From the IMG/VR virus record IMGVR_UViG_3300008517_001638, positions 1-39,024 of that record: a stretch of 39,024 bases of DNA. One strand, given 5' to 3'. The notes under the pieces were generated by a model. The model searched no databases, had not been told where the DNA came from, and was given only the letters and a program-made list of their open reading frames with translations. This document shows positions 1 to 39,024 of this stretch, in pieces. The first letter of the stretch is position 1, and every line of letters starts with the position of its first letter. Source of the stretch: a virus. The position numbers were made by a program, and so were the translations under genes.

Positions 1-1
1 T

Positions 2-4425: not shown

Positions 4426-4426
4426 T

Positions 4427-6153: not shown

Positions 6154-6377
6154 AACTAAAACTAAAAATGAGCCTGAAGTATTTGCGGATTCTGTACGCA
6201 AATGAATGCAAGCACCAACATAAATACATGAAGCCGACGGACCCGCAGGCGTGGAACCCGGATGATTGTACGGATTGCGTCCTGGCTAAAATGCCCTGGA
6301 GACCGAAGCTCGGGGCACCGCAAGATTTGTGCCATTTAATATGGCGCCAGAAAATATTAGATAAAAAAAGGAGGTAA
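6150..6377 (+). CDS. small hypothetical protein with Cys/His residues
   Basis: 75 aa, unrecognised. It contains CKHQHKY and DDCTDCVLAK, so a small metal site is possible but not a clear zinc finger. It overlaps the preceding gene by 4 nt (ATGA). The aggaggtaa motif at its 3' end serves as the ribosome binding site for the next gene. Confidence 0.65.
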   Translation: MKLKLKMSLKYLRILYANECKHQHKYMKPTDPQAWNPDDCTDCVLAKMPWRPKLGAPQDLCHLIWRQKILDKKRR

Positions 6378-6382
6378 CTAAA

Positions 6383-6613
6383 ATGGGAAAATTACCATCA
6401 ATCGTAAACATCATTGAACAACTACGAAGACACAAAAGGAAGGAGGCGTACAACACGGCGCAGCTTGTGGTACAGCTTAACGCATTCGGTGGGAATTGGA
6501 ACGCCACACATGTTGACGATCTGCTCGACGGCCGGACGATGCCGTCGGGAAACGAGGCTATGTTCCTGCGGCGCTACCTGCTCAACAAATTCTACGACTA
6601 TAACAACAGCTAA
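6383..6613 (+). CDS. small hypothetical protein, helical
   Basis: 76 aa, unrecognised. Preceded by a near-consensus ribosome binding site (AAAGGAGGTAA). It is predicted mostly helical, with IIEQLRRHKRKEAYNTAQLV followed by a VDDLLDGR..PSGNEAMFLRRYL segment that loosely resembles a compact helix-turn-helix. That resemblance is weak. Its stop overlaps the next ATG (TAATG). Confidence 0.68.
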   Translation: MGKLPSIVNIIEQLRRHKRKEAYNTAQLVVQLNAFGGNWNATHVDDLLDGRTMPSGNEAMFLRRYLLNKFYDYNNS

Positions 6614-6849
6614 TGCACGAAGTATACACTTGCATATGCGGAGGCCAAAGGTGGAAAATCCTCGGGGGCGTGATTGAATGCGATAAGTGTGGAAAAGAGT
6701 ATATATTAATGTGGGACGTTGGGATAGATGGTCAGATGGAGAGCCCCAAAGATTTTAACGAGCGGGTAAAGCAGGAGGAGCACGGTGGACTCGTTGCCGA
6801 GCCAGAGCCACCGTTTACAAAAAAATTGATAGACGATAAGGAGGAATGA
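6613..6849 (+). CDS. small zinc-ribbon protein
   Basis: 78 aa. The N-terminus holds two pairs, CICGGQRWK and CDKCGKEY, separated by about 15 residues, a plain zinc ribbon. The remainder is acidic and polar. It starts in a TAATG overlap with the gene before. It is one of three small zinc-ribbon genes in the first 9 kb; its role is unknown. Confidence 0.7.
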   Translation: MHEVYTCICGGQRWKILGGVIECDKCGKEYILMWDVGIDGQMESPKDFNERVKQEEHGGLVAEPEPPFTKKLIDDKEE

Positions 6850-7035
6850 ATGAAATACTTTTTATGGAGATTATTTAGGCGATGCTTCTGGATGCGTCAT
6901 ACAACTCATTATTCGCACCCAGTGACAGGCAATCGCTATTATGGCGAATGGGAGCAGAGACGACATAAAATTCGCAACAACCTGGTATACAAGCTGATCG
7001 GTGCAAAAACCCCGGGGGAACAAACATGCCTATAA
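6850..7035 (+). CDS. small basic hypothetical protein
   Basis: 61 aa, aromatic- and Arg-rich (MKYFLWRLFRRCFWMRH at the start), unrecognised. The start follows the previous stop directly with an AAGGAGG site upstream, and the end overlaps the next gene by 10 nt. The N-terminal 15 residues are amphipathic and might associate with membrane, but no clear membrane helix is present. Confidence 0.58.
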   Translation: MKYFLWRLFRRCFWMRHTTHYSHPVTGNRYYGEWEQRRHKIRNNLVYKLIGAKTPGEQTCL

Positions 7036-7346
7036 TAGTTTGTTTAAAGGAACCGGGAATTAACCTGGTGTGCGATGGCGACATTAAGGACGAAACAGCC
7101 AAACAGTATGACGAGTTGTTTCCTAACTTGATGGTTAAAGACCAGGAGGGATACAACATAGTGATTCCACTGTCGACGGGCTGTAACATTGCATTTATAA
7201 AGGAGATTACGCAGAAGGAGCTAGACAAGCGAAAGGCAGAAGCAGAGAGACGGAAAAAGAAAGCGGAGGCGCAATGTGGAGGAATGGACGGATTAATAAG
7301 TAAACCAGACATGCTGTTTCCATCAGGTCAAGGGGGAAGAGGCTGA
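7026..7346 (+). CDS. hypothetical protein with charged C-terminal helix
   Basis: 106 aa, unrecognised. The first ~65 residues look like a small mixed fold; they are followed by a strongly charged helix (KELDKRKAEAERRKKKAEA) and a Gly-rich end. A GGGGGAA purine run lies upstream of the ATG at 7026. It sits between portal and the minor head protein, a place where phages often keep small head-associated genes, but no function can be assigned. Confidence 0.65.
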   Translation: MPIIVCLKEPGINLVCDGDIKDETAKQYDELFPNLMVKDQEGYNIVIPLSTGCNIAFIKEITQKELDKRKAEAERRKKKAEAQCGGMDGLISKPDMLFPSGQGGRG

Positions 7347-7390
7347 GATACCAAACTGCAATTCCAGCAACGCCCGACGAGGTACAGCAA

Positions 7391-8221
7391 GTGGCAATGG
7401 ACATTATTCTCGCAAAAGGCCGGCGCGCACAAAGGGCACGACGCAGTTATAGCCGGTTAATGCGATTGAATGAGCGGAAGTTCATGCCGGTGGTAAATGA
7501 GTGGCTGGGATGGACGGCCAAGAAACTGAAGTCGGGACTTTCCTCTATGAAAGGGCGGACTCCTGCGGCTAAAGCCAAGAGTCTAGCAGATTGGGACGAG
7601 ATACGTGCCCATGGCGAGGAGTTAATGAAGCCGGCGTTGTTCGAGGCGCTTGAGGCCGGTGGGAATTCCGTTATGGGTCAGCGGATAAAGAAACAGGAAC
7701 GCTTTGATCCCATAGGCGTGGAGGCTATAACGTGGACTGCAGAGCACAGTGCGGAATTGGTGGTGGAAATAACCAATGAGACGATGAAGGCGATTAGCGA
7801 ATACATAGCAGTGGGAATAAACGAGGGCAAGAGCGTACAGGCAATTGCGATGGAACTTAGGCCCTTGGTCGGCCTGACGGCGAAGGATATTATGGCTGTG
7901 GCCAACTATCATGAGATGCTGATTCTGGAGCGCCCTGAGTACACGGCAGCAACGCAGCGGAAGATGGCAGAAGTGTATGCACGGCGGTTGCACCGACGCA
8001 GGGCCACAACTATTTCCCGTACCGAAACCGCCTATGCGTTGACCGAGGGACAGCGGCAAGGCTACGCTCAAATGGGCGTTAAGAACCTGGAGCGAGTGGA
8101 AGACCCTGACTGTTGCGACATCTGCGCAGAATATAACGGGAAAATTTATACAGTAGCAGAAGCGGAGGGCGTGCTTCCAGAACATCCGTCATGCGAAGGG
8201 ACATGGGTGATAGCGGGATGA
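7391..8221 (+). CDS. minor head protein, SPP1 gp7 / Mu F family
   Basis: 276 aa. Such proteins sit in the head near the portal and are needed for head morphogenesis or DNA ejection. The C-terminal domain carries the family signature: ATTISRTETAYALTEGQRQG, then DPDCCDICAEYNGKIY and PEHPSCEGTW (Cys/His cluster, roughly residues 232-272). The start used is GTG at 7391 with GAGG 8 nt upstream; an ATG lies at 7397. The same frame stays open back to 7304 and reads plausibly (for example TAIPATPDEVQQ), so a non-standard upstream start cannot be excluded. Confidence 0.88.
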   Translation: MAMDIILAKGRRAQRARRSYSRLMRLNERKFMPVVNEWLGWTAKKLKSGLSSMKGRTPAAKAKSLADWDEIRAHGEELMKPALFEALEAGGNSVMGQRIKKQERFDPIGVEAITWTAEHSAELVVEITNETMKAISEYIAVGINEGKSVQAIAMELRPLVGLTAKDIMAVANYHEMLILERPEYTAATQRKMAEVYARRLHRRRATTISRTETAYALTEGQRQGYAQMGVKNLERVEDPDCCDICAEYNGKIYTVAEAEGVLPEHPSCEGTWVIAG

Positions 8222-8469
8222 AAATATACCAACTCGCAGGGCACGGTCACTGGATGCTGAACCACGCTCAGTATACTGCCTTCTCCGACGACGTCTACCG
8301 CACTGAGGAAGCAGCGAAAAAGGCCATACCTGAATATTTCAAATATCTAACAACGCCTAAGAGGGAAGGTGATAATATGGTCTTGGACCCAAAGGGGTTG
8401 CGGATCTTTATACATCCGTTGAATTTAAAAAACAAAAAATCGAAAAGGAAAAATAAACAAAATGATTAA
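8218..8469 (+). CDS. small hypothetical protein
   Basis: 83 aa from the ATG at 8218, which overlaps the minor head protein stop (ATGA); the frame is open further up but this overlap is the better start. Unrecognised. The N-terminus (IYQLAGHGHWMLNHAQY) is aromatic, the middle has EEAAKKAIPEYFKYL, and the C-terminal end is very basic. The end overlaps the next gene by 8 nt. Confidence 0.6.
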   Translation: MKIYQLAGHGHWMLNHAQYTAFSDDVYRTEEAAKKAIPEYFKYLTTPKREGDNMVLDPKGLRIFIHPLNLKNKKSKRKNKQND

Positions 8470-8761
8470 AGCGGTTTTACTCTCCACGGTTGTGGCATCA
8501 ATATCGTTTTTTATTAGCCACTCACAACTGCTTGTGGGGCTTAAGATCAAATTATACAAACCCAAAGGAGCGATGTTCTTTTACAATCTTATAACGTGTT
8601 GCTACTGCCTTGGACACTGGATAGCGGCCGCCGTGCTGATAATGTTTCCTGTGAAACTGTTCGGTATATACGCACCAGCGGATTACTTTTTAACATGGCT
8701 CGTGATAAGTTGGGTGGCTGGACTTCAGAGTCTGGCTGCGAGTCAACTGTGGGGGGAGTGA
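8462..8761 (+). CDS. small membrane protein, DUF1360-like
   Basis: 99 aa with about three membrane segments (roughly residues 4-28, 38-62 and 72-94). Between the first two is NLITCCYCLGHWIAA, which resembles the CPYCLGFW motif of the DUF1360 family found in several phages and Bacillus elements. The family has no established function. It could be an inner-membrane accessory protein; it lacks the neighbours that would argue for a holin. Confidence 0.68.
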   Translation: MIKAVLLSTVVASISFFISHSQLLVGLKIKLYKPKGAMFFYNLITCCYCLGHWIAAAVLIMFPVKLFGIYAPADYFLTWLVISWVAGLQSLAASQLWGE

Positions 8762-8956
8762 ATGTGTTGTGGAGGGAGACTGGATAAATTGACGAGAAAG
8801 AAATTCCGCCCGCCTCCTGTAGTGGTGGAACAGGTGAGTGATGAGTCGCTGTGTCCAACATGTGGGACGGTGTTGTTGTTGAGGCGCGGGTGTTGCGGTA
8901 AGCGGGGCAAGCTATATTGTCCCAATAAACAATGTACGGTGAAGGAGGTTAGGTAG
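8762..8956 (+). CDS. small zinc-ribbon protein
   Basis: 64 aa, Cys-rich: MCCGG at the start, CPTCGTVLLL in the middle, then CCGKRGKLYCPNKQC. The last two clusters form a four-Cys zinc ribbon. The ATG follows the previous stop directly and the gene ends immediately before the dehydrogenase of the metabolic cassette, with an AAGGAGG at its 3' end serving that gene. Role unknown. Confidence 0.68.
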   Translation: MCCGGRLDKLTRKKFRPPPVVVEQVSDESLCPTCGTVLLLRRGCCGKRGKLYCPNKQCTVKEVR

Positions 8957-9631
8957 ATGGCCGATGTATTGATAACTGGCTCAAGTAAAGGACTTGGTAG
9001 GAGTCTTGCTCTGACCTTTGCGCGCAACAACTATAACGTGATTATTCACGGGCGAAACAAAAAGCGGCTTGAAGAAGTCGAGCAGGCAGTGCGGGAATGG
9101 AACGTGGAATGCGATGTTGTTGTGGGACATTTGTCTGAGAGCCGAACTATCGAGAAGCTCGCTGAAATGGCGTGGGAAAAACGTATCGATGTACTTATTA
9201 ATAACGCAGGGACATATTCCAAGAAACCCATTGCGGAGGTTAGGGACATAGAAATGAGAGAAGTGATAGAAACGAACCTCATTGCGCCCATGCTATTGAT
9301 GAAGCGAATGGCATGGATGTTTAAATTAGAATGGGGCGGGAGAATAATCAATATAAATTCGGCGGCGGGTAAGGAACCAAACTTTCTCGAACCAATCTAT
9401 TGTGCGAGCAAACATGGGCTTCGAGGCCTTACAAGTTCATTACGGTGTAATTCAAATACGCAAATAATCGACGTCTATCCCGGCGCCATGAAGACAGATA
9501 TGGCGCAGGGGCGAGAGGATTTTAACGATCTCATTGATCCTAATGATGTGGCGCAGGCCATTTTTACATTATGTGAGAATTACAAGAGTTTAAAAATAAA
9601 GGAGGTTGCCATTGGTAGAAAGAACTACTAG
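8957..9631 (+). CDS. short-chain dehydrogenase/reductase
   Basis: 224 aa, classical SDR, a cytoplasmic NAD(P)-dependent oxidoreductase. The cofactor motif TGSSKGLG is at residues 7-14, the structural NNAG near residue 83, the catalytic Ser in NINSAAG near 132, and the catalytic pair in YCASKHG near 149-153. All four key elements are intact, so it should be active. The Arg in IHGRNKKR after the second strand suggests NADP preference, as known for the family. The substrate is unknown; a sugar or sugar-phosphate carbonyl is plausible from the neighbouring transketolase and dehydrogenase. It is the first gene of the cassette, with an AAGGAGG site upstream. Confidence 0.92.
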   Translation: MADVLITGSSKGLGRSLALTFARNNYNVIIHGRNKKRLEEVEQAVREWNVECDVVVGHLSESRTIEKLAEMAWEKRIDVLINNAGTYSKKPIAEVRDIEMREVIETNLIAPMLLMKRMAWMFKLEWGGRIININSAAGKEPNFLEPIYCASKHGLRGLTSSLRCNSNTQIIDVYPGAMKTDMAQGREDFNDLIDPNDVAQAIFTLCENYKSLKIKEVAIGRKNY

Positions 9632-10712
9632 CACAATAAAGTTTAAAGCGGCGATTCTAAAAAAACAAAACAAGCCTTTAATCGTAGATGAAATCAGCGT
9701 CTATCTTCCTGGCTTGGGTGTGGGAGAGGTGTTGGTCAAAGTCCGTGCTGCTTCGATATGCGGAAAGCAAATTGCTGAGATAACTGGGGCTGCGGGGCCT
9801 GACAAATACCTTCCGCACTTACTCGGTCACGAAGGGGGAGGAGTGGTTGAGGAAATCGGAGCGGGCGTAACAACGGTTAAGAGAGGAGATCCCGTGGTTA
9901 TGCATTGGAGGAAAGGGAATGGTATCGAAGCGAAGCCTCCGAAATACAAGTGGGGAGACAGGGAAGTGGGTGCAGGTCCAGTGGCGTGTTTTGCTGAATA
10001 TGCTGTGGTGAGTGAGAATCGACTGACTGCGATAGACAAGGAAATTCCCATGGAAATAGCTGCACTTATGGGTTGCGCTGTGACCACGGGACTGGGTATT
10101 GTGAATAACGATGCGAAGCTTAAGATCGGCCAATCCGTAGCGGTTATTGGTTGTGGAGGCGTGGGGTTGAATGTTATTGTGGGAGCGAAGATGGTATCAG
10201 CAAATCTAATAATCGCCGTTGACATTCATGAAGAAAAATTGGGAATGGCGAGGAAGTTCGGAGCGACTCACACAATTAATGGAAGGAGTTTTCTTTACTC
10301 ACCAAAGGCAAAAATTTTGGAAGACGTACTCAACAACCTGGCAAAGCAAATAAATGAGATTGCCGCTTTCGATGCAGTTGTGGAATGTACGGGCCATGCG
10401 GGACCAATAGCACTCGGATATAAGATCATCGGGCCGGGCGGCCGGTTGATCCTTGTAGGACAACCGCGTCATGGCGAATCCCTCACAATCCACTCTATGC
10501 GCCAGCACTATTGCGGAAAGACGGTGTTGGATTCTGAGGGGGGTCAAACTCGGCCCCATGTGGACATCCCCCGGTATATAAACTTATACCGTGAAGGGAA
10601 ATTGGATTTGGCTCCCCTCATTACCCATCGCTATCCATTGACCGAAATCAACAAAGCTATTGAGACGGTCAAGTTGGGCATGTGTGGGAAAGTTATTCTG
10701 GAGTTAGCATGA
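9612..10712 (+). CDS. zinc-type medium-chain alcohol dehydrogenase
   Basis: 366 aa from TTG at 9612, set by AAAGGAGG six nt upstream; the TTG at 9606 lies on that SD. It overlaps the SDR end by 20 nt. The catalytic zinc ligands are likely Cys in ASICGKQ (near 50) and His-Glu in LLGHEGGGVVEEIG (near 71). The NAD-binding motif is IGCGGVGLNVIVG (near 180), followed by AVDIHEEKLGMARKFGA. The structural zinc loop of four cysteines is replaced by HWRKGNGIEAKPPKYKW, a variant I associate with dehydrogenases of surface-polysaccharide loci. It probably oxidises or reduces a sugar or polyol; the substrate is not known. Confidence 0.9.
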   Translation: MVERTTSTIKFKAAILKKQNKPLIVDEISVYLPGLGVGEVLVKVRAASICGKQIAEITGAAGPDKYLPHLLGHEGGGVVEEIGAGVTTVKRGDPVVMHWRKGNGIEAKPPKYKWGDREVGAGPVACFAEYAVVSENRLTAIDKEIPMEIAALMGCAVTTGLGIVNNDAKLKIGQSVAVIGCGGVGLNVIVGAKMVSANLIIAVDIHEEKLGMARKFGATHTINGRSFLYSPKAKILEDVLNNLAKQINEIAAFDAVVECTGHAGPIALGYKIIGPGGRLILVGQPRHGESLTIHSMRQHYCGKTVLDSEGGQTRPHVDIPRYINLYREGKLDLAPLITHRYPLTEINKAIETVKLGMCGKVILELA

Positions 10713-10876
10713 ATATGTTTATTATTCAAGCGGTGATGAAGACTGATGAGACAGATGAAAATAAGGCTCTAAAAGAAGTGCGTGAATTGCTCCAGAAGAA
10801 GTTTCAGGTTGTAGCTTTAGTGATGACGCATTTTGATATGGATAAACAAAAGAATGCAATAAGGGGTCATACATGA
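10709..10876 (+). CDS. small hypothetical protein in the metabolic cassette
   Basis: 55 aa from the ATG at 10709, which overlaps the dehydrogenase stop (ATGA); its own stop overlaps the transketolase start the same way. The sequence reads as strand-helix-strand (FIIQAVMKTDE, KALKEVRELLQKKF, QVVALVMTHFDM), like a compact ferredoxin-like half. Not recognised. The tight coupling on both sides argues that it is a real gene and may act with the flanking enzymes. Confidence 0.6.
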   Translation: MNMFIIQAVMKTDETDENKALKEVRELLQKKFQVVALVMTHFDMDKQKNAIRGHT

Positions 10877-11622
10877 ATTCACAATTAAATGAACGGAGTA
10901 AACAGGTTCGCAGGGATACGATTAAACTTTCAAAGAGTAACGGTGGGTATCACTACGCCGGCTCGTTTTCAACAGTTGAAATCTTGATCGCTCTCTACGA
11001 TGAAATCATGACAGGCGAGGATAAATTCATATTAAGCAAAGGCCACGCCTGCTGGCCTTATTATGTCCTCCTCAGAGAGAAAGGATTGAAGCCGAAACTC
11101 GAAGGACATCCTACTTTGGATGAGAAGAATGGGGTTAGCTTCACTACTGGCTCCGAAGGACACGGATTCCCCGCTGCTGTGGGCATGGCTTTAGCCAGAA
11201 AGATTCAGGGCAAACCAGGACGTATTTATGTTCTGGTTGGTGATGGGGAATGTCAGGAGGGCACGACATGGGAGGCACTTCTCACGGGTGCTTTCCGAGA
11301 GTTAAATAATCTAACTGTTATCGTAGATTTCAACGGAATCCAAGGAGCGGGTTTTGTGAGAAATATTCTTCCTTTGCCCGGTCTTGCAGAGATCGCCTCA
11401 ACCATTGGTTGGTCAGTCTTAGAAATCAGCGGCCATTCTATGCCTGAGATACTCGGCGCTCTGAGATTCACAAGCACACATCCCTGTTTTATAGTTGCCC
11501 ACACTGTTAAAGGAAAGGGCGTTAGTTTCATGGAAAATATCCCTAAGTGGCACGCTTGCTGGCTCGATGGTGAAGAAGAGAAACAGGCATTCAGAGAACT
11601 GGAGGCAAATTGCAGTGAGTGA
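10873..11622 (+). CDS. transketolase N-terminal (TPP-binding) subunit
   Basis: 249 aa. With its partner at 13225 it would form a split transketolase moving a two-carbon ketol unit between sugars, using thiamine pyrophosphate. Motifs seen: KFILSKGHACWPYY (His near residue 57), GSEGHGFPAAVGMALA, the TPP/magnesium motif GDGECQEGTTWEA (near 122) ending in VDFNGIQG (near 150), and the late VKGKGVSFMEN with its substrate-site His (KWHAC). All are in the order expected for the N-terminal half of transketolase. The partner is not adjacent: three genes lie between. Start and stop both overlap neighbours. Confidence 0.92.
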   Translation: MNSQLNERSKQVRRDTIKLSKSNGGYHYAGSFSTVEILIALYDEIMTGEDKFILSKGHACWPYYVLLREKGLKPKLEGHPTLDEKNGVSFTTGSEGHGFPAAVGMALARKIQGKPGRIYVLVGDGECQEGTTWEALLTGAFRELNNLTVIVDFNGIQGAGFVRNILPLPGLAEIASTIGWSVLEISGHSMPEILGALRFTSTHPCFIVAHTVKGKGVSFMENIPKWHACWLDGEEEKQAFRELEANCSE

Positions 11623-12358
11623 GATATTGCTTATTATTTTTCTGGCTTGTGTCATGGAGGCTATTGATTCTTCATTAGGTATGATGTATGGCACACTGTT
11701 AAGCCCTATCTTTATTGGCATGGGATACGAACCTTTAGTTGTTGTACCGGCAATTTTGCTCTCTCAAGCAATAGGAGGGATGAGCGGAACTATGATGCAC
11801 CAGAAATTTAAGAATGCTGATTTCATGGGTTTTACAAGAGACACTAAAGTTGCTTTGGCTATGGTTGTTCCTGGGGTATTTGTTGTCGTCTTGGGCGTTT
11901 TTGCCGCATTGAATTTATCAAAGGTTTTTGTTAAGACCTATATTGGTGTTCTAGTGATTGCGATGAGCATTTTGTGTGTATCATCTTTTCGATATAAATT
12001 TGCTTGGTGGAAACATTATCTTGTTGGGACTTTGGCCGCATTTAATAAAACCTTAACTGGTGGCGGATTTGGGCCAGTAACAAGCACGGGCGGAATTATT
12101 GGGGGATTAAAAACCAGGGTGTCTGTAGCGACCACAACCTTTGCTGAGGTCTGCATATGCTTTAGTGCTTTTATTGTTTATCTTTTCTTCGCTGAGATTA
12201 ATTGGTCATTTGTCTTGATATTGTCTACAGGAGCTGCTCTTGGAGGGAGTTTTGGTCCGTATATTTGTGCACAAGTTTCACACAATTCACTCAGAAGAAT
12301 TATAGGTATTTTTGGAGTGCTATCGGGCTTGTGGTTGCTTTATAAAGTGTGGTTATAA
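11615..12358 (+). CDS. TauE/SafE-family membrane permease
   Basis: 247 aa from GTG at 11615, with GGAGG nine nt upstream; an in-frame ATG further up lies inside the transketolase gene and is less likely. The protein is strongly hydrophobic, with about seven or eight membrane segments. The N-terminal half has EAIDSSLGMMYGT and the second half NKTLTGGGFGPVTSTGG, the two internally related loops typical of TauE/SafE (DUF81) carriers. Family members export sulfite, sulfoacetate or related organic anions, but many have no known substrate. It probably acts in the host inner membrane. Permeases of this kind are rare in phage structural operons. Confidence 0.87.
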   Translation: MSEILLIIFLACVMEAIDSSLGMMYGTLLSPIFIGMGYEPLVVVPAILLSQAIGGMSGTMMHQKFKNADFMGFTRDTKVALAMVVPGVFVVVLGVFAALNLSKVFVKTYIGVLVIAMSILCVSSFRYKFAWWKHYLVGTLAAFNKTLTGGGFGPVTSTGGIIGGLKTRVSVATTTFAEVCICFSAFIVYLFFAEINWSFVLILSTGAALGGSFGPYICAQVSHNSLRRIIGIFGVLSGLWLLYKVWL

Positions 12359-12377
12359 TGTTAATAAGCTGTGAAGT

Positions 12378-12719
12378 ATGATGCATAAATATAGTCTTTT
12401 TATAGGTCGATACCAGCCGTTCCACGACGGCCACGAAAAGCTGATAAGGTCTGTGCTGGACGAGGGGAAGAATGTTTGTATAGCGATTAGGGACACAGAG
12501 AAAGATGAGAAAAATCCTTATAGCATCGACGAACGGACAAAGATGATTTTTGATAGATTCGTAAGAGAGGCGATCTTGGAAAGTAGGGTGCGTGTTGTGG
12601 TTATTCCGGACATCACTGAGGTCTGCTACGGCCGGAAGGTAGGTTGGGGAATTCGGGAAATAAAACTAGACGCTGCTACCGAGCGGATTTCAGCAACAAA
12701 AATAAGGGAAAAATCATGA
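12378..12719 (+). CDS. small nucleotidyltransferase of the cytidylyltransferase/NMNAT superfamily
   Basis: 113 aa. The N-terminal motif GRYQPFHDGHEKL (residues 10-22) contains the HxGH of this superfamily, and the C-terminal ISATKIRE (near 103) is the matching ISxTxIR motif. NPYSIDERTKMI after the second strand is also NMNAT-like. It is shorter than typical NMN adenylyltransferases (~170 aa) but keeps both catalytic motifs. It would transfer AMP or CMP from a nucleoside triphosphate to a phosphorylated metabolite. It is coupled (ATGA) to an APS-kinase-like gene, so the two may act on the same compound. The SD is weak. Confidence 0.82.
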   Translation: MMHKYSLFIGRYQPFHDGHEKLIRSVLDEGKNVCIAIRDTEKDEKNPYSIDERTKMIFDRFVREAILESRVRVVVIPDITEVCYGRKVGWGIREIKLDAATERISATKIREKS

Positions 12720-13228
12720 GTTTTACAATATGGTTTGTAGGGTTGCCGTGTTCCGGTAAAACAACGATAGCAAAAGAAGTTAAAAAGTTCTTAAAGGCTT
12801 CAACCGGAAGACCGATTGTTCATCTCGACGGTGACTACATGAGGGACGGGCTTACTAAAGGCCTTGGATTTTCTGATGAAGGTATTTGCGAAAACTTAAT
12901 GAGGGCAACATATGTGGCAAAGCTTTTGAATGAACAGGGCATTGTTGTTGTGGCGTCTTTTATCTCCCCATTTGAGAAAATGCGAAAGTTCGCCAGAGAG
13001 CAAATTAATAGGTATATTGAAGTGTGGGTGGACTGTCCGCCTGAAATATGTAAGAAAAGAGATGTTAAGGGGATGTGGAAATTGGCGGAAGAAGGGAAGC
13101 TTAAAGACTTCATAGATCAGGACCGATTTGAAGCTCCTAGTAATTGCGCGCTTCGGCTTGATACAAGTTTACATAGTATAAAATGTTGTGCTAGGAAGGC
13201 GATATATTTTTGCGAGGTAAGAAAATGA
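12716..13228 (+). CDS. adenylylsulfate (APS) kinase-like protein
   Basis: 170 aa from the ATG at 12716 (ATGA overlap; AAGGGA upstream). The P-loop GLPCSGKTT is at residues 9-17. VHLDGDYMRDGLTKGLGFS, FISPFEKMRKFAR, VWVDCPPEICKKRD and FEAPSN follow, each matching an APS kinase block in order. True APS kinases phosphorylate the 3'-OH of adenylylsulfate to make PAPS. Close relatives act on other nucleotide-linked compounds, such as the CDP-linked kinase of Campylobacter phosphoramidate synthesis. The neighbouring nucleotidyltransferase is not an ATP sulfurylase, so a different substrate is quite possible. Confidence 0.88.
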   Translation: MSFTIWFVGLPCSGKTTIAKEVKKFLKASTGRPIVHLDGDYMRDGLTKGLGFSDEGICENLMRATYVAKLLNEQGIVVVASFISPFEKMRKFAREQINRYIEVWVDCPPEICKKRDVKGMWKLAEEGKLKDFIDQDRFEAPSNCALRLDTSLHSIKCCARKAIYFCEVRK

Positions 13229-17733: not shown

Positions 17734-18520
17734 TTTAAAATTCCCAAAATGTGACGTACCCGATTCACCGCACCAACCAGAGCTTATCATCCGTGATCAC
17801 CAAATGAAAAACTATCACATCAACAGTCACAAAGTGCGTTGGCTGAAGGATGTGATTGATATTACTGATGCGCATCGTTTTGTTGACGACTTCGACAGCT
17901 TCATCTCCCCCGTTGTGGGTGACGGTGTTGCTAATATCTACGCGTGGACTGAGACTGTGGTTGGTGGTGGAGCTGCCACTCTGATCGATATGGTTAATGG
18001 CGTATTGCTCCTTGAGACCGGTCAAACAGAAAATGATGCGATAGAACTTGCAAAACCTTTCGAAGCTTTTATGTGTGAAGAGTGCTACCCACTCTATGCT
18101 GAGATTCGATTCAAAATAGGCGGAGTAATACAAAGCGATTTCTGGTTCGGATTGGTTACCGGAGAAGGTTGGTTCGGTACTCCCGATGATGCTATTATTT
18201 TTGACAGTGTAGATGGTAATGCGAGTATTCGCTTCATTACCCGCACAGGCGCAGCTCAGACACTGACTGACACTGGAATTGATTTTACGGACCTTACGTG
18301 GATTCGCCTCGGATTCCACTGGGACGGGGATGAAACAATTCGCTGGTTTGTCATTGCTGACGGCAACGCACCACAAGTGATTCTTGCTGCAGGAGCCCAT
18401 ACAACTCATGTGCCTACTACAGAACTTCAGCTCGGATTTGGAATTCGTTCCGGTGCAGATGGTGGTCAAGCGCTTTATGTTGATTATGTCAAATGCGTAC
18501 AACTTCGCGTAATTGAATAG
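17720..18520 (+). CDS. capsid decoration-like protein with lectin-type jelly roll
   Basis: 266 aa. It overlaps the previous gene by 14 nt and is preceded by AAAGGAGG. The core (about 45-262) has repeated beta-strand blocks: FVDDFDSF, LLLETGQTENDAIEL, PLYAEIRFKI, DDAIIFDSVDGNASIRF, LTWIRLGFHWDGDETIRWF and ALYVDYVKCVQL. This is the layout of concanavalin-A-like or LamG jelly-roll proteins, often found as head decorations in marine and gut phages. It probably coats the capsid and may bind carbohydrate. The exact family is not certain. Confidence 0.72.
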   Translation: MGQDDLKFPKCDVPDSPHQPELIIRDHQMKNYHINSHKVRWLKDVIDITDAHRFVDDFDSFISPVVGDGVANIYAWTETVVGGGAATLIDMVNGVLLLETGQTENDAIELAKPFEAFMCEECYPLYAEIRFKIGGVIQSDFWFGLVTGEGWFGTPDDAIIFDSVDGNASIRFITRTGAAQTLTDTGIDFTDLTWIRLGFHWDGDETIRWFVIADGNAPQVILAAGAHTTHVPTTELQLGFGIRSGADGGQALYVDYVKCVQLRVIE

Positions 18521-18594: not shown

Positions 18595-19710
18595 ATGGCA
18601 GCAACTGGGTGTTTTCTGGTTGAAGGCGATATCGACAATTGGCCAGTGGGCTATACCGAAGCGCAGAAGCAAGCGATAATCGATAAGGTCGAACAGATAA
18701 TTGACAAAGTAACTGGCACCCACTGGTGTGCTACAGCCTTCGACATAAAGCTAAACGGCAATAACAAAAACCGTCTTTTTATCCCACTCGAAACTGATAT
18801 CCTATCGGTCACTCAAATTTTTATTGACTGCGTGGAGTTGGATTCGAGTTGGTGGGAATACGATATCAATTCCGTATTTCTTGATCCCTGCATCGGCGAC
18901 AGCATGTGGGGGTCCAATGCCATCCGGGACGGCGATTTTTACTCTTGGAAGATAGCGGACCCGACGACTGACCTCTACTATTGGGAAGAGACCATTGCCG
19001 GCACATCGACCGTGAACCGAGATACAGCACAAGTGCAGGTTGGAAATTATTGCGTGCGTCTGGATATTGATGCACTAGACAGTCAGGCAGAAATAAGTCA
19101 GAAATTCTCACTCTACCGCAATAGAGATTACACGCTGTTCTTCAAATACCTGAATTCAGAAGCAGTGAAGACCGCCGAATTCATGCTGTATAATGCCGAC
19201 AAGAACGAATCTCTGGCGGCCGATGGGACGTGGGTGGCCGGTCAGGTTTATGTTGCGATTGCGAATGCAGAGGCGTGGACAAATTATTCGCTCTCGTTCA
19301 CAAGCCACCCGGACTTTGCAAACTACGAACTGCACCTGAGTAACGCGGTAGCCGCTTCCTCCTCAATTTATCTCGATAACGTAGGAATTCTGACGGCGGG
19401 AATAGCAGCTATAGTCAGTGATTTGATAGAGGGGATCTTCCCCCGTGGATTCAACAACGTGCAGGTAATAGGCACACACGGTGAAAGCTCCGTTCCCAAG
19501 GCCATAAAACAAGCAGGGATTGCATTTGCAAAGTGGGAGAACGATCCGGCATCAGAAGCAGCAATGGGACTTATGAAGAGCGAGAAAATAGGCGACTACT
19601 CGTACACGAATCTAGCAACCGCAGAAGAGGACGTGCTGACCGGAATCGATAAGGTTGACATGTACCTCCGACACTATATAAAGCGGAAGGCAATTGTGAT
19701 GGCCCCATAA
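18595..19710 (+). CDS. head-tail adaptor with an inserted carbohydrate-binding-like domain
   Basis: 371 aa. The two ends belong to a head-tail connector: EAQKQAIIDKVEQIIDKVTG with NRLFIPLETDILSVTQIFID (about 22-88), and PRGFNNVQVIGTHGE with LMKSEKIGDYSYTNL (about 283-345). Between them (about 105-265) is a beta-rich block: RDGDFYSWKIADPTTDLYYW, YCVRLDIDALDSQAEISQKF, RDYTLFFKYLNSE, WTNYSLSFTSHPDF, YELHLSN, SSSIYLDNVGI. That pattern matches CBM4/9-type galactose-binding-like folds. The adaptor would join portal to the stopper, with the extra domain displayed on the neck. A good SD (AGGAGA) precedes the ATG. Confidence 0.8.
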   Translation: MAATGCFLVEGDIDNWPVGYTEAQKQAIIDKVEQIIDKVTGTHWCATAFDIKLNGNNKNRLFIPLETDILSVTQIFIDCVELDSSWWEYDINSVFLDPCIGDSMWGSNAIRDGDFYSWKIADPTTDLYYWEETIAGTSTVNRDTAQVQVGNYCVRLDIDALDSQAEISQKFSLYRNRDYTLFFKYLNSEAVKTAEFMLYNADKNESLAADGTWVAGQVYVAIANAEAWTNYSLSFTSHPDFANYELHLSNAVAASSSIYLDNVGILTAGIAAIVSDLIEGIFPRGFNNVQVIGTHGESSVPKAIKQAGIAFAKWENDPASEAAMGLMKSEKIGDYSYTNLATAEEDVLTGIDKVDMYLRHYIKRKAIVMAP

Positions 19711-22700
19711 TGGATAGATTACAAAGATTAGTACACGAAAAGAGACGTCCTGAAGTTGTTTATACAAATAAATTTGCTTGGAATGTGTTGCCCGATGGAT
19801 CATGGCAGGATAAACCATGTTTCATAGTGGGCGGGGGGCCAAGCCTCGCAAAGTTTAATTGGGATTTGCTCAAGGGAAAGCTAACGATTGCTATAAATCG
19901 AGCATATGAGATGTTCGACCCCACTATTATTTTCGGTATGGACCCCAGCTTTGTGCGGCATGTGCTGATGAATAAATACGGCGATCGAGCAAGAACGAAG
20001 TTTAAACAATCATCCGCAACGAAAATATGGGTTAATGGTACGGGAATAAACCTACCAGACGATATTTATGTATTAAAATACTGGCAGAATTATCTTAAGG
20101 GGCGCAGAGCGTTCCCGTTGACTATGAAAGAGGGGATAGGGCACGGCAACAACTCGGGGTACGGCGCTTTAAATTTGGCCGCCTGTCTTGGTGCTAACCC
20201 TATTTACTTGCTCGGATATGATATGAAGCATGAAAACGGTAAGACGCACTGGCACGACGGCCACCCAAAGCAGCCGCCTGATCATGTACCGGGCAGTTTT
20301 AAGGAGCATTTTACTACTGCGGCTGAGATTTTGAAAACAAACGAGATAAGCGTCATAAATTTGAATCCCGACTCAGCGCTTAATTGTTTTCCTAAAATGG
20401 AGATATCGACCGGTTTCAATCCCCCGATCAAAGTCAAGACAAAAGAAAAAGAAAAAGACAAGCCTCCTCGTCCTGTAATGCAATCCGCATTTTCAGATGT
20501 CGTAGTGGATAACGCTTGGAAAGGTCTGCGTTGTTTCATTATAGGCGAGGGCGCAAGCCTCAAACATTTCGACCTTTCCCGCTTGGAGAGCGAACTGACC
20601 ATCGGAGTAAACCGTACTTATGAGAAACTTGGTTGTACGATCATGTTTGCTACAAACGCTGAGTACCATAAATGGATAATAGAGGGGAAGATGGGAGCTA
20701 GAGCAGAGAGGAAATTTGAGGAATTCAACGGGCATAAGGTCTGGTTGGGTTCGCAGAATTACGGGCTCAAAGAAGTAAACCATTTAATGGAACTTGGCGG
20801 TACGGGATTTTCCTCCTCACTGAAAAAAGGATTGGTAAGCAATGGCAGCCCTGAATACGGTGCTTTGAATTTGGCTATTTGCCTGGGAGCAAATCCAATC
20901 TATCTCTTGGGTTTTGATATGCATGGCGAAAACGGGAAGCAACCTTACTGGCATGATGGTTATCCGAAGGATCAATCCGATACTGTGTACGCTAAATTCA
21001 AGACGTATTTTGAGGGCGTTGCTCCAACTCTGAAAAAGAAGGGGATTAAGGTAATAAACCTCAATCCGGCCAGCGAACTGAAATGCTTCGATTTTGGAGA
21101 CATTAAAGATTTTGCGGACCCGCTGGGCAAATATATGTATCACGCAGGCTATGATTCGACTAAACTTATACGTTATGAACATGATACCCTGTACTTTAAG
21201 GGCGCTCTTGGGTTCGGAGACAATTTTTACCAGCGCCAAATTATTAAAGACTTAGCGAAGTCATATAAGACCATTCATATAACAACCGCTCTGCCGGAAA
21301 TGTATTGGGATATTCCGAATGTTAAATTTGCTAAATCGACAGTCATGTACAAATTAAGAACTCACAAAAAGCGCATGGAGGCGCTCCCTGCTGAGACCTG
21401 GAGCCCGAAGCCAGATAAAAAAGATTCAGACTCTGTGTATGTCGCATTGCTTCACCCTCCTGTAGGGAGAAACTTGCGGACGAAGTATATAGAACTTGAA
21501 AACAGGAAAGACTTTGATTTTACTTTTCCGGTTAAAAACGAGTGGGTAGAGAAGGCCAAGAAGCTGGTTAAAACACTCCCACTAAAAGGAAAGAAGCTCT
21601 GTATCATACGTCGTCCTACATGCCGTACAGAATGGAATTGTCCTGCAAGAAATCCCAAGGTCGAGTATTACCAACTGCTCATCGATAAGTATAAAGACGA
21701 GTATTTCTTCGTCGGCATTGCTGACGTGGAAAAAGAACAAGAGTGGTTTGATGGCGATATTCACGGTTTGGATAAGGAATTCAATAAAGGCGAGATCGAT
21801 TTACCAATAATATTCGGTCTCATGAAAATCGCGGACATGACAATAACTTATCCGAGTTTATTTATGATCGCAGCAATAGCAATCCGTACGAAGTGTTTTT
21901 GTTTGTTTGGTGGTTGTGGGATGCCCGATACGGTTCTTAGAAGGGGCTGGGGGCTTCAGAATTTTGGTTATGTCGCTCCTGAGCCGTTTTGTAATTGTAT
22001 AAATATGAATCATGACTGCAAGAAGGACATGCCACCGAAGAAGATAATAAAGGCATTTGAAGAACTAAGGGAAAGGAAAAAATACATCAAGAGCGTCACG
22101 GTTGGTTGTTGTCCCGGGATAGGCGATTCACATTGGGCGATGACTAAAATGCAATCCTTCAAGGAAAAGTTAGCTATAGATGAATTGAAAGTTGTGGTCC
22201 GTAGAGACCCCGTCCACCATTATACGGCGGATTTCCTCAAGATGATCCCGTTTATCGACGAGATTGTAGCACATCCCAGTGGATTAAACTACATGCCTCT
22301 TTACAATAAGGATGCCCCAGCTGCGATAACAAAAGAGGTTGATGGATGCGATTACATGGTAGACCCCGGCGCTCTTATGTGGTTAAAGGGGACGCTTCTT
22401 GAAGACATTCTTCCTAATTATGACACAAATTTTCACTACCCTATAGTTTTTCCTAAAAGCGCTCGACAGGAGGCCACACGTATAAAAAAGGAAAATAAAG
22501 GGAAGGTTGTCATATTCTTTGCTTCCTCTATCATGAGTAATAACGATTGGAATAAGGGAGCCTGGTCGGTTAAAAATTGGGTCGCTCTGGCGGGACGTAT
22601 TTTTAAACATACAGGAGTTCGCCCCATTTTAATTGGGGCGGAGTGGGATAAAACTTATGCAGAATTGATACGGGGGGCCGACACAGAGAATGTTATCCAA

Positions 22701-22991
22701 TATCGCGTGGGTGAGATGGGCATTGAGCAGACCCTTTGCTTGCTCCGAGAGGCAAACCTTGTTGTGGCATTTCCGTGCGGGATTCCGATAATGGCAACCT
22801 ATTTCGGCATACCAACTGTCATGTTCTGGCCTCTCAGAGGCATTTCTAGGAGAGAACGGTTCGATCCCGCATTTCAATTTACTTGGGCTCCCCCGGAATC
22901 AAGGAACAATGGGCGATATATTCCAGCCGCGTATGATGCGCCAGACACAAATCCGACAGAGATATTTAATCGAACAAGGAGATTTCTGTGA
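19710..22991 (+). CDS. four-domain glycosyltransferase-like protein (2 x DUF115/MptE-like + 2 x GT9-like)
   Basis: 1093 aa. Domain 1 (about 30-235) and domain 2 (about 266-470) are internal repeats: CFIVGGGPSLAKF / CFIIGEGASLKHF near the start and LGANPIYLLGYDM / LGANPIYLLGFDM near the end, both followed by HW/WHDG. This is the DUF115/MptE-like fold also found in Maf flagellin glycosyltransferases. Domains 3 (about 480-785) and 4 (about 790-1085) look like GT9 heptosyltransferases: LYFKGALGFGDNFYQRQII with MTITYPSLFMIAAIAI, and VTVGCCPGIGDSHWAMTKM with LVVAFPCGIPIMATYFGIPT. It probably transfers sugars onto virion, phage product or host surface glycan. The ATG overlaps the adaptor stop (TAATG). 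Confidence 0.82.
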   Translation: MDRLQRLVHEKRRPEVVYTNKFAWNVLPDGSWQDKPCFIVGGGPSLAKFNWDLLKGKLTIAINRAYEMFDPTIIFGMDPSFVRHVLMNKYGDRARTKFKQSSATKIWVNGTGINLPDDIYVLKYWQNYLKGRRAFPLTMKEGIGHGNNSGYGALNLAACLGANPIYLLGYDMKHENGKTHWHDGHPKQPPDHVPGSFKEHFTTAAEILKTNEISVINLNPDSALNCFPKMEISTGFNPPIKVKTKEKEKDKPPRPVMQSAFSDVVVDNAWKGLRCFIIGEGASLKHFDLSRLESELTIGVNRTYEKLGCTIMFATNAEYHKWIIEGKMGARAERKFEEFNGHKVWLGSQNYGLKEVNHLMELGGTGFSSSLKKGLVSNGSPEYGALNLAICLGANPIYLLGFDMHGENGKQPYWHDGYPKDQSDTVYAKFKTYFEGVAPTLKKKGIKVINLNPASELKCFDFGDIKDFADPLGKYMYHAGYDSTKLIRYEHDTLYFKGALGFGDNFYQRQIIKDLAKSYKTIHITTALPEMYWDIPNVKFAKSTVMYKLRTHKKRMEALPAETWSPKPDKKDSDSVYVALLHPPVGRNLRTKYIELENRKDFDFTFPVKNEWVEKAKKLVKTLPLKGKKLCIIRRPTCRTEWNCPARNPKVEYYQLLIDKYKDEYFFVGIADVEKEQEWFDGDIHGLDKEFNKGEIDLPIIFGLMKIADMTITYPSLFMIAAIAIRTKCFCLFGGCGMPDTVLRRGWGLQNFGYVAPEPFCNCINMNHDCKKDMPPKKIIKAFEELRERKKYIKSVTVGCCPGIGDSHWAMTKMQSFKEKLAIDELKVVVRRDPVHHYTADFLKMIPFIDEIVAHPSGLNYMPLYNKDAPAAITKEVDGCDYMVDPGALMWLKGTLLEDILPNYDTNFHYPIVFPKSARQEATRIKKENKGKVVIFFASSIMSNNDWNKGAWSVKNWVALAGRIFKHTGVRPILIGAEWDKTYAELIRGADTENVIQYRVGEMGIEQTLCLLREANLVVAFPCGIPIMATYFGIPTVMFWPLRGISRRERFDPAFQFTWAPPESRNNGRYIPAAYDAPDTNPTEIFNRTRRFL

Positions 22992-36998: not shown

Positions 36999-37439
36999 CT
37001 ATGATATTTTATACGTAGCTTTTTTGAGTCCTAAATCCCTTATCATCTTGTTAGCCAGAAGATCAGCTTCGCCTCTTGAATCGACATGTACATCTTTCTC
37101 TGCAGCTTTACTCCCGATTGAGGATATGATTGTAATTTTGAATTTGATTTTGATGCCTGGTGATGCTTCTGGTTTAGACTGTTTCGATTTCAAAAGCGAT
37201 ATCATATAATTGCTCGGATGCTTTTTCTCGATGCGATCAGGAGGATAGGGATCATGGCCAAGTTGCTTGATTAATCGTTCGCGCAACTCATCTTCAATCC
37301 AGATCGTCTCCCTAGCATCTGCAATGGTAATCTTACGTGCAGGAAGTAATTCACCCTTCAACATTAAGCGATTAAATCGCATAGTCAATTCAAAAGTTGG
37401 GACTTCCTTGACTTCTTTTTTTGTTAAATTATTTCTCAT
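36999..37439 (-). CDS. hypothetical protein, paralogue of the gene upstream
   Basis: 146 aa from the ATG at 37439 (GGAG seven nt upstream). The first 60 residues (NNLTKKEVKEVPTFELTMRF, then the ITIADARETIWIEDELRERL stretch) resemble the last 65 residues of the next gene (KNLTNKRIRKATTLELIFRM, DLWEAVAIAKELKRRLG). The remainder is a basic beta-rich tail (IKIKFKITIISSIGSKAAEK). No known family. Confidence 0.68.
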   Translation of the reverse strand: MRNNLTKKEVKEVPTFELTMRFNRLMLKGELLPARKITIADARETIWIEDELRERLIKQLGHDPYPPDRIEKKHPSNYMISLLKSKQSKPEASPGIKIKFKITIISSIGSKAAEKDVHVDSRGEADLLANKMIRDLGLKKATYKIS

Positions 37440-37764
37440 TTCTTAACTCCATATAAAAGATTCCGAGTCTTCCTAACCTACGTTTCAATTCTTTAGCAAT
37501 AGCAACAGCCTCCCATAAATCAGTCTTAGGTATTCCTGCATCCTCCGGTCGGCGTTTACATTCTGTATGCAGACAATTCATCCTGAAGATCAATTCAAGC
37601 GTAGTAGCCTTGCGTATCCTTTTGTTAGTAAGATTTTTTCTTTTCGTATCCTTCTCCCATTGCTTGTTTTTGTCGAAGAACGTGCATTTTTTATAATACC
37701 TACAGTCTACGCAATCATGGAAGAATTTGCTTGAGTCTTTACACATGAGAGTTGTTTTTTTCAT
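37429..37764 (-). CDS. hypothetical protein with N-terminal Cys cluster
   Basis: 111 aa from the ATG at 37764; an AGGAG lies 12 nt upstream. CKDSSKFFHDCVDCRYYKKC (near 8-27) could form a small metal site. The C-terminal part is the domain shared with the gene at 36999. It overlaps that gene by 11 nt. Function unknown. Confidence 0.68.
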   Translation of the reverse strand: MKKTTLMCKDSSKFFHDCVDCRYYKKCTFFDKNKQWEKDTKRKNLTNKRIRKATTLELIFRMNCLHTECKRRPEDAGIPKTDLWEAVAIAKELKRRLGRLGIFYMELRNEK

Positions 37765-37778
37765 GTCGTTTTAATCTC

Positions 37779-38117
37779 CTATTCTTGAATCTTTCCGGCC
37801 AGATAGCCGTCAATAAAGATCAGCCGTTTCGCAATCTCCCGCATCCTACATGAATCTGTGTCGTCTGTCTTAGCTTCTTTGTTAAGTGCGTACCGCTCCT
37901 GTATAGCCTTTATCGCACTGGCCGGCGCTGTAGTATCCCTTGCCAACCGTTCTTTCAGATTCATTTGTGTCCATGGGCCACGCACCCAAACTTCCCGCTT
38001 GTGTATAAGAAGATAAAGTGCACCACCCGCAACCAATATAATCCAGAGGACTGGATGCTTATCCCAAAGAAAGATTGACGTGAAGCCCAAGATAACTGCA
38101 CAAATTAAAGCTGTCAT
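37779..38117 (-). CDS. membrane protein with two N-terminal helices
   Basis: 112 aa from the ATG at 38117 with AGGAGG upstream. Two membrane segments (ALICAVILGFTSIFLW and VLWIILVAGGALYLLI) come first, then a soluble, charged part (WTQMNLKERLAR, RMREIAKRLIFIDGYLAG). It is not recognisable as a holin. It is in the middle of the leftward run. Confidence 0.7.
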   Translation of the reverse strand: MTALICAVILGFTSIFLWDKHPVLWIILVAGGALYLLIHKREVWVRGPWTQMNLKERLARDTTAPASAIKAIQERYALNKEAKTDDTDSCRMREIAKRLIFIDGYLAGKIQE

Positions 38118-38127
38118 GTTAATCCTC

Positions 38128-38265
38128 CTATCTGTGAAATTGTAGTCGCCTTTTTTGCTCTTGGCGCTTTCGTACTTTCGTGCGTTCTTTAAGCTCTAAT
38201 CTTAATCGTTGCATCTGCTGTGGGGTAACGATAACCATTGTTGTTTCGTCTTTTTTCTTTTTCAT
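38128..38265 (-). CDS. 45-aa basic hypothetical protein
   Basis: A short frame of 45 aa from the ATG at 38265, Lys/Arg/Gln-rich, with the Met-Val-Ile-Val-Thr-Pro stretch VIVTPQQMQRLRLELKERTK and basic RKRQEQKRRLQFHR at the end. A GGAG lies 11 nt upstream. It fits between its neighbours with little spare sequence. It might bind nucleic acid; no family known. Confidence 0.55.
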   Translation of the reverse strand: MKKKKDETTMVIVTPQQMQRLRLELKERTKVRKRQEQKRRLQFHR

Positions 38266-38268
38266 TAC

Positions 38269-38514
38269 TTAACATGCTCCAAGTGTATCAGAGTGCTTTA
38301 CTGAGAATAGTCTTTCAGCTCTTTCTCTGTTCTTTAGGTGATGTTTAGCGTTAGCTATTGAATCTTTCCAATCACGTCCAAACTTATAAGTTTGACCAGC
38401 TATCCAGATTATAAACTCTGAATCAGTTAAATCTTTTAAAGCAGAACCTCTTTCCAGGTGTTCTTTACATACGCGATTATACTCTTTAATCAAATCGTTG
38501 CTGCTTGTTATCAT
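38269..38514 (-). CDS. small hypothetical protein, first of two with a repeated initiation region
   Basis: 81 aa from the ATG at 38514, with AAAAGGAG seven nt upstream. An in-frame ATG at 38538 would add MKNKKEKT, but that peptide is encoded by the ribosome binding site itself, so the later start is preferred. Sequence: LIKEYNRVCKEHLERGSALK, then DLTDSEFIIWIAGQTYKFGR and ANAKHHLKNRERAERLF, all helical. Not recognised. Confidence 0.65.
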   Translation of the reverse strand: MITSSNDLIKEYNRVCKEHLERGSALKDLTDSEFIIWIAGQTYKFGRDWKDSIANAKHHLKNRERAERLFSVKHSDTLGAC

Positions 38515-38538
38515 TGTTTTCTCCTTTTTATTTTTCAT
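38512..38538 (-). repeat. 27-bp repeat, copy 1 (translation initiation region)
   Basis: 27 bases running from one ATG through AAAAGGAG to a second, in-frame ATG. Identical base for base to 38777-38803. Both copies precede a leftward gene. Confidence 0.9.
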
Positions 38539-38548
38539 GTAATTCCTC

Positions 38549-38779
38549 TTAATTGAATTTATATTCTTCTACTTCAGGAATATTGTCATTAGGATTGAAA
38601 ATAGTTACTAGAGAAAGCTTGACAATTCCTACTGGTGTTATTTGAGAACCCATTGATGAAACGGTTACCTGATAGCCAAGTTTTCTAAGTTGATGTGCTC
38701 TTTTCCTGGCGTTTCCACTTGCCGATTCATAGGATTCTTGTTGAAGGCCAGCTGTTCTGGCGATTACTAATGCTTTCAT
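38549..38779 (-). CDS. small hypothetical protein, first gene of the leftward run
   Basis: 76 aa from the ATG at 38779 (AAAAGGAG upstream; an in-frame ATG at 38803 would add the same MKNKKEKT as in the next gene). Sequence ALVIARTAGLQQESYESASG, then RKRAHQLRKLGYQVTVSSMG and FNPNDNIPEVEEYKF: a basic helical region followed by strands. Unknown. It is promoter-proximal, so it may be the most expressed gene of this run. Confidence 0.65.
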   Translation of the reverse strand: MKALVIARTAGLQQESYESASGNARKRAHQLRKLGYQVTVSSMGSQITPVGIVKLSLVTIFNPNDNIPEVEEYKFN

Positions 38780-38803
38780 TGTTTTCTCCTTTTTATTTTT
38801 CAT
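38777..38803 (-). repeat. 27-bp repeat, copy 2 (translation initiation region)
   Basis: Perfect copy of 38512-38538, 265 bp upstream in the direction of transcription. It holds the AAAAGGAG ribosome binding site and both possible start codons of the first leftward gene. Confidence 0.9.
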
Positions 38804-38807
38804 TCTA

Positions 38808-38836
38808 TATATAATATAAGTCCTTCTGTCTGTTGA
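38808..38836 (-). promoter_or_regulatory. possible leftward promoter
   Basis: On the minus strand TCAACA (38836-38831) and TATATA (38813-38808) are 17 bp apart, each 4 of 6 against consensus. Transcription would begin near 38801, which leaves the AAAAGGAG site and the ATG at 38779 inside the message. Weak boxes, so the exact position is uncertain. Confidence 0.4.
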
Positions 38837-38918
38837 TGTAATAGCCTATTGAGATGAAATTTACCTCATCGTGTTGTTGATATGATACCACCCCAAAAGG
38901 CTAGTCGCACCTCTTTGA

Positions 38919-38936
38919 AATTATTTTAAAATAATT
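38919..38936. promoter_or_regulatory. 18-bp perfect palindrome, candidate operator
   Basis: AATTATTTTAAAATAATT reads the same on both strands. It lies 11 bp before the -35 box of the rightward promoter and within the divergent control region, where a repressor or activator dimer would be expected to bind. Its A+T content makes chance more likely than for a mixed palindrome. Confidence 0.5.
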
Positions 38937-38947
38937 GCGATTGGGGG

Positions 38948-38975
38948 TTGACAAATCGAATCTGTGACATATAAT
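38948..38975 (+). promoter_or_regulatory. consensus sigma70 promoter facing right
   Basis: TTGACA at 38948-38953 and TATAAT at 38970-38975 are both exact consensus, with a 16-bp spacer. It should be strong and constitutive unless repressed. It drives a gene beginning just beyond the window. Confidence 0.82.
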
Positions 38976-39013
38976 GTATATATATGTATGTATAATGTGC
39001 GTCAAAAGAAAAG

Positions 39014-39020
39014 AAAGGAG
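39014..39020 (+). promoter_or_regulatory. ribosome binding site of the next gene
   Basis: AAAGGAG four bases from the right edge. No start codon follows inside the window, so the gene should begin within the next few bases beyond it. Confidence 0.65.
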
Positions 39021-39024
39021 AACA

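Follow-up and report, generated by a model that had tools for sequence, protein, structure and literature searches.

The DNA analysed here, referred to as the window, comprises all 39,024 bases of a virus record (IMG/VR record IMGVR_UViG_3300008517_001638), whose list of open reading frames has 184 entries. The record is a fragment of a tailed phage. Its rightward genes comprise the final part of an HNH gene, both terminase subunits (small and large) and a DNA methyltransferase with a LAGLIDADG segment, and further a portal, a head morphogenesis gene, a protease, a tape measure and tail genes. Small leftward genes, which have no family match at E 0.01, take over at about 37 kb. Between the first of these and the right end of the record lie 221 bp (38804-39024) holding a consensus promoter that points rightward, an AT palindrome just upstream of it, several small repeats, a hairpin on the leftward strand and a Shine-Dalgarno sequence at the cut end. 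A first-pass annotation had described the 245-bp gap at 38780-39024 as a divergent control region resembling an early-region switch, and a sequence check found all the features it listed at the positions it gave.

Phage context and search for the missing right flank

The left end of the window is the tail of the HNH gene, and the upstream remainder is found in contig L003, whose sequence agrees fully with that of the window over 1-6642 and 6727-11091 and which reaches 7165 bases beyond the left end of the window. As this HNH gene continues upstream in L003, it is not the rightward gene that is missing at the right end. The part of L003 beyond the window has rightward genes, and its extra genes include a SpoU methylase, HNH genes, a DNA methylase and an NlpC/P60 protein; with rightward genes lying to the left of the window, an operon that starts from its right end can fit in the unsequenced gap. 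Circular closure of the record was considered and rejected, since the ends have no exact overlap of 8-200 bases and no 12-mer is common to the first 500 and the last 2000 bases.

The 84 bases at 6643-6726 of the window that are missing from L003 are present in contig L004, itself identical to the window over 1-6870. In the window, the DNA methyltransferase ORF (2425-4425, 666 aa) has its LAGLIDADG endonuclease segment at residues 56-149, which is possibly an intein or a homing insertion. Another DNA methyltransferase ORF is found in L003 (3706-5535, plus strand), and in its middle a 195-aa ORF occupies the opposite strand (4420-5007, minus), which looks HNH-like by its motif. In contig L009, at 299-2147, the large terminase gene is split by an insertion that seems, judged by its motif, to encode an HNH-like protein. 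The SpoU-family RNA methylase is encoded at L003 1335-1793 (Pfam E 4.8e-16). Metabolic-type genes stand amid the structural genes at 8957-13228 and 19710-22991 of the window; they include a FabG-like reductase, a member of the zinc alcohol dehydrogenase family, a cytidyltransferase and a kinase, and also a protein of 1093 aa whose matches are sialyltransferase-like and MptE-like.

Terminase relatives were confirmed in species genomes at two loci out of 45 matched stretches, with 48% and 49% identity, and both are on contigs binned with Candidatus Aminicenantes. Within the class of these two contigs, 5 of 142 genomes have a terminase match, those two among the five. We take this as a hint at Candidatus Aminicenantes as host, a pointer and not an identification. 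When 41 proteins of the window were scanned against PHROGs, no match bore the name integrase or repressor; since the scan covered these 41 from a list of 184 ORFs, many of them small, and the genome is incomplete, this says little on whether the phage is temperate.

Searches for relatives of the region and for its right flank gave little. Two pattern scans of viral contigs with the sequence of the window end returned no stretches, in a collection that may omit near-identical records. Protein scans of the same kind of contigs confirmed no relative among 49 stretches for the first leftward gene, 6 for a 591-aa protein and 5 for a 252-aa protein. For the second leftward gene, one of 38 stretches was retained (42% identity over query residues 36-80, at a locus of 65% G+C), and this one was not used. 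Compared with phage records, the DNA of 37400-39024 had no match and the proteins P0001, P0002, P0004 and P0005 no useful match, and P0002 had three weak matches to plasmids. For the 221-bp gap, 60 records were matched at E up to 10, the best 20 covering 17-18% of it at E 0.2 or worse. In the 142 genomes of the class with the terminase relatives, the 38804-38947 part of the gap had matches in 23 at E up to 0.1; the best was 21 bases long (E 6.6e-4), and the matches listed were 17-33 bases long, many of them on the AT palindrome, and all this was considered chance. In the same genomes the first leftward protein had matches in two (best E 0.08) and the second in five (best E 0.003, with stops inside). 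These searches gave no convincing relative of the gap, and no conclusion below is built on conservation.

The predicted rightward promoter and the AT palindrome

The promoter TTGACA-16-TATAAT lies at 38948-38975 on the plus strand and matches the consensus at 12 of 12 positions; its 16-bp spacer falls within the 17 ± 1 bp by which sigma-70-type promoters are defined, together with the hexamers, in PMC4390567. It is the sole perfect hexamer pair with a spacer of 15-19 bp on either strand of the whole window, and the annotation was right to call it perfect. Dinucleotide shuffles of 38804-39024 (local shuffles in what follows) gave such a pair in 4 of 2000 cases, and in none of 2000 when the spacer was restricted to 16-18 bp; shuffles of the whole window gave one in 6 of 200. 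As a class, promoter-like sites are not enriched, either near the gap (5 found, 4.1 expected) or in the window at up to two mismatches (8 found, 5.28 expected).

From this promoter, host housekeeping RNA polymerase would start near 38982, and the predicted leader runs for 43 nt to the record end (38982-39024). Its fold is weak (-2.9 kcal/mol). The leader contains a Shine-Dalgarno sequence, AAAGGAG, at 39014-39020, starting 32 nt past the predicted start, which the annotation had not mentioned. The record stops 4 bases past this motif, before any start codon of a rightward gene, so that the gene would be just beyond the end. The two leftward genes have a purine-rich leader similar to the rightward one, and a 28-base stretch is duplicated at their starts (see below), so the rightward gene most probably begins at the cut or immediately beyond it. 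The leader would be short and weakly folded and, with its good ribosome-binding site, would lead into that gene, probably the first of an early or replication operon of the phage; as the gene lies beyond the record, the "early" status of the operon is something we infer.

Upstream of the promoter, an 18-bp perfect AT palindrome (AATTATTTTAAAATAATT) occupies 38919-38936, with 11 bp between it and the -35 box, as had been described. With that box numbered -35 to -30, the palindrome extends from -64 to -47. A palindrome of at least 18 bp arose in 3 of 2000 local shuffles, versus 31 of 200 shuffles of the whole window; it is unusual for its location, not for a window of 39 kb.

Two roles may be proposed for it, an UP-type element or an operator. 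UP elements are described as AT-rich, their distal subsite covering -58 to -45 and the proximal subsite -45 to -37 (PMC2613000). PMC4390567 states that either subsite alone can work, and PMC9655642 describes one Bacillus UP element with palindromic and inverted-repeat sequence between its subsites. At our locus, the palindrome overlaps the distal zone and reaches upstream of it, and the proximal zone is G-rich rather than AT-rich. Scored against an UP core consensus, the best place is 38917-38927, which agrees at 10 of 11 positions; 23 of the 78026 11-mers of the window do as well. This place is some 9 bp upstream of the canonical one, which agrees with the consensus at only 6 of 11.

The annotation had called the palindrome a candidate operator, a proposal that lost ground: no second copy exists in the window within 3 mismatches (one further place has 4), and the other repeats named with it are at chance level. 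Given its position 11 bp before the -35 box and its overlap with the distal UP zone, contact with polymerase explains the palindrome about as well as a repressor does. Most likely it boosts the promoter through an UP-type contact with the alpha subunit of the polymerase, a site for a repressor or an activator being nearly as likely.

An alternative is an early-region genetic switch, in which a phage regulator, probably the product of the rightward gene, would bind the palindrome and weigh rightward against leftward transcription. Phages are well known to have divergent regions under the control of a repressor (PMC8516035), the genes here do diverge, and close to the promoter lies a palindrome of operator size that is rare in local shuffles (3 of 2000). 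Nevertheless, the palindrome lies upstream of the promoter and not on it, it is single within 3 mismatches in the window, the leftward promoters are at chance level, no regulator is recognised on the leftward side, and the PHROGs matches of the 41 proteins scanned include neither integrase nor repressor. What is left of the original proposal is a divergent region with one strong-looking rightward promoter; the switch is not established, and we regard it as a possible but rather doubtful explanation.

The leftward side and a predicted 62-nt hairpin

The first leftward gene (P0001) is an 84-aa ORF at 38549-38803 on the minus strand, with a probable true start at 38779, and the second (P0002) is an 89-aa ORF at 38269-38538 on the same strand. 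An exact duplication of 28 bases (38511-38538 and 38776-38803) covers the ribosome-binding site and start region of both, for which reason both longest ORFs begin with MKNKKEKTM; the real start is probably the second ATG of each. Neither protein has a Pfam or PHROGs match at E 0.01, only uninformative matches appear at E up to 10, and sequence searches of the PDB gave nothing useful. The P0001 model, made without an alignment, has one helix and four strands (alpha+beta, mean pLDDT 76.2), and its best fold matches are double-stranded-RNA-binding domains, weak ones obtained with a low-confidence model (Foldseek E 0.07, TM 0.39). P0002, also modelled without an alignment, is predicted to be helical (mean pLDDT 79.9) and has no fold match in the PDB better than E 1.7. 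Judged by these sequences and models, neither of the two nearest leftward genes is recognisable as a regulator or repressor, and this, along with leftward promoters at chance level, weighs against the switch.

The small repeats between these genes and the promoter were all found as described, and each named one is at chance level. The inverted repeat GATGA-N8-TCATC is present at 38853-38870, inside the larger hairpin discussed below, and on its own is at chance level: 345 of 1000 shuffles of 38804-38947 have an inverted repeat with 5-base arms and at least two G/C per arm. TGTTGAT does occur at 38831 and 38875, but 7-base direct repeats with at least two G/C appear in 279 of 1000 shuffles of the same stretch. 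Both copies belong to a 13-bp repeat scored at 85% (38831-38843 and 38875-38887, plus strand, the second inside the hairpin), and 13-base repeats matching at 11 of 13 positions are seen in 98 of 300 shuffles. A near copy of the 13-base repeat, with one mismatch, is found on the minus strand in coding DNA at about 17813-17825. Taken over the 221 bp, repeat totals are high, with 11 inverted repeats with 5-base arms (reached in 14 of 2000 shuffles), 13 direct repeats of 7 bases (10 of 2000) and 4 dyads with 7-base arms (7 of 1000), probably on account of TATATA tracts and of the palindrome itself.

The first TGTTGAT had also been placed on a leftward -35 box. The overlap is real, TCAACA at 38836-38831 being a leftward -35 candidate with 4 of 6 matches, but leftward promoters stand at chance level: the best scores 9 of 12, against a mean best score of 9.2 in shuffles (both strands). 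Among the seven leftward candidates, three would include the whole hairpin in the transcript, one would start inside it and three past it. We infer a weak or factor-dependent leftward promoter that would serve the cassette of small genes.

The least expected feature of the gap, absent from the first-pass annotation, is an imperfect hairpin of 62 nt with 23 pairs at 38842-38903, best formed as leftward RNA (-23.6 kcal/mol, z -6.1). None of 1000 shuffles of the minus strand from 38903 to 38842 folds as well, and 200 shuffles of the whole gap yielded no 65-base stretch of such stability on either strand. Read as the plus strand, 38842-38903 folds less well, at -16.3 kcal/mol (z -3.8, 2 of 1000 shuffles); 5 of the 23 minus-strand pairs are G-U pairs, which are unavailable to the opposite strand. 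The whole 144-nt gap before the promoter is only moderate (minus strand z -2.15, 3 of 200 shuffles; plus strand z -0.86, 33 of 200). In two assumed longer leftward transcripts the hairpin has pair probabilities of 0.88-1.00, and 8 of 9 bases of the ribosome-binding stretch are unpaired. Elsewhere in the window, about 38 of 7792 windows of 65 bases (0.49%) are at least as stable. The lowest z was -5.1 on a grid of 1300 windows. On a finer grid, with 5196 windows at 15-base steps and testing confined to folds of -15 kcal/mol or lower, it was -4.95 after refinement. The comparison is not like for like, as the hairpin was framed exactly.

No Rfam family matches at gathering scores in the window, and two microRNA matches (E 6.3 and 8.7) were taken as chance. 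A search model made of the single hairpin sequence entered twice recovered the hairpin, the strand opposite to it (E 0.0088) and a site in contig L016 (E 0.067); the latter overlaps open frames, shares mostly the pairing and is probably chance. Across 18 sources (201,523 bases) no credible second copy emerged, and the model had no hit at E up to 0.1 in the 142 genomes, in a search run without a positive control. Running leftward from 38891 on the minus strand, a candidate GTG-started frame of 28 codons shares part of its length with the hairpin and terminates immediately ahead of the first leftward gene.

If leftward transcription starts to the right of 38903, the hairpin would be part of the leader and may stabilise the RNA or control its reading. 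It could even be the main element of the region, as a cis-acting leader RNA of the leftward operon that works through stability, translation control or antitermination. The fold statistics given above, the better folding of the leftward strand with its G-U pairs and the pairing kept in both assumed transcripts agree with this idea. We nonetheless consider it unlikely, because leftward promoters are not above chance and only three of the seven candidates take in the whole hairpin, the entire 144-nt gap folds just moderately better than shuffles, and neither an Rfam family nor a credible second copy was found. More specifically, it may be a new leader RNA, perhaps bound by the product of the first leftward gene, giving self-control at the RNA level opposite a strong rightward promoter, an idea that comes from the weak double-stranded-RNA-binding-domain matches of that low-confidence model and that we hold to be very improbable.

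The inverted-repeat DNA might otherwise serve as a site of replication or recombination, or have arisen as a small palindromic insertion, and be no control element. In keeping with this, both strands beat their shuffles (z -6.1 and -3.8), and at 33% G+C the gap is rich in A and T; but the loci searched hold no second copy, no iteron array rises above chance and the asymmetry between strands favours RNA, which makes such a site quite unlikely.

Proposed reading of the region and comparison with known systems

On balance we lean, with modest confidence, towards an ordinary divergent control region of a tailed phage, in which a strong rightward promoter would serve probably early genes and the palindrome would be of the UP type. 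If this is right, it marks where rightward transcription starts in a group of phages that is uncharacterised; in species genomes, the nearest relatives found for its terminase lie on the two contigs binned with Candidatus Aminicenantes. The region offers a short testable promoter and one RNA hairpin, the latter being the feature of the gap most worth testing. As things stand, the known picture of phage control regions is unchanged.

Among structured RNAs, the analogue would be the HK022 put RNA, on the basis of a structure about 60-70 nt long close to an early promoter (PMC9378689). The put RNA has two adjacent stem-loops downstream of known promoters, whereas here a single long hairpin is predicted and the leftward promoters are candidates at chance level. 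Plasmid pLS20, with overlapping divergent promoters and looping, has in common with our locus a strong promoter in a divergent intergenic region; for that plasmid (PMC4207663), a flanking regulator gene and two operators are shown, neither of which is seen here.

In the CI-type lysis-lysogeny switch of Staphylococcus aureus phage 13, as at our locus, a promoter and a dyad lie between divergent genes. According to PMC8516035, that phage has three CI operators. In the window, the dyad is single and unrepeated and TGTTGAT is at chance level, so that the repeated operators of a CI/Cro arrangement are lacking within it; moreover, the visible side has no repressor gene, and no lysogeny gene was recognised among the proteins scanned. 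Compared with a consensus sigma-70-type promoter with an UP element, as PMC2613000 presents it, our locus differs in its 16-bp spacer, its G-rich proximal zone and a palindrome that extends past the distal zone, and it shares the perfect hexamers and AT-rich DNA over the distal UP zone.
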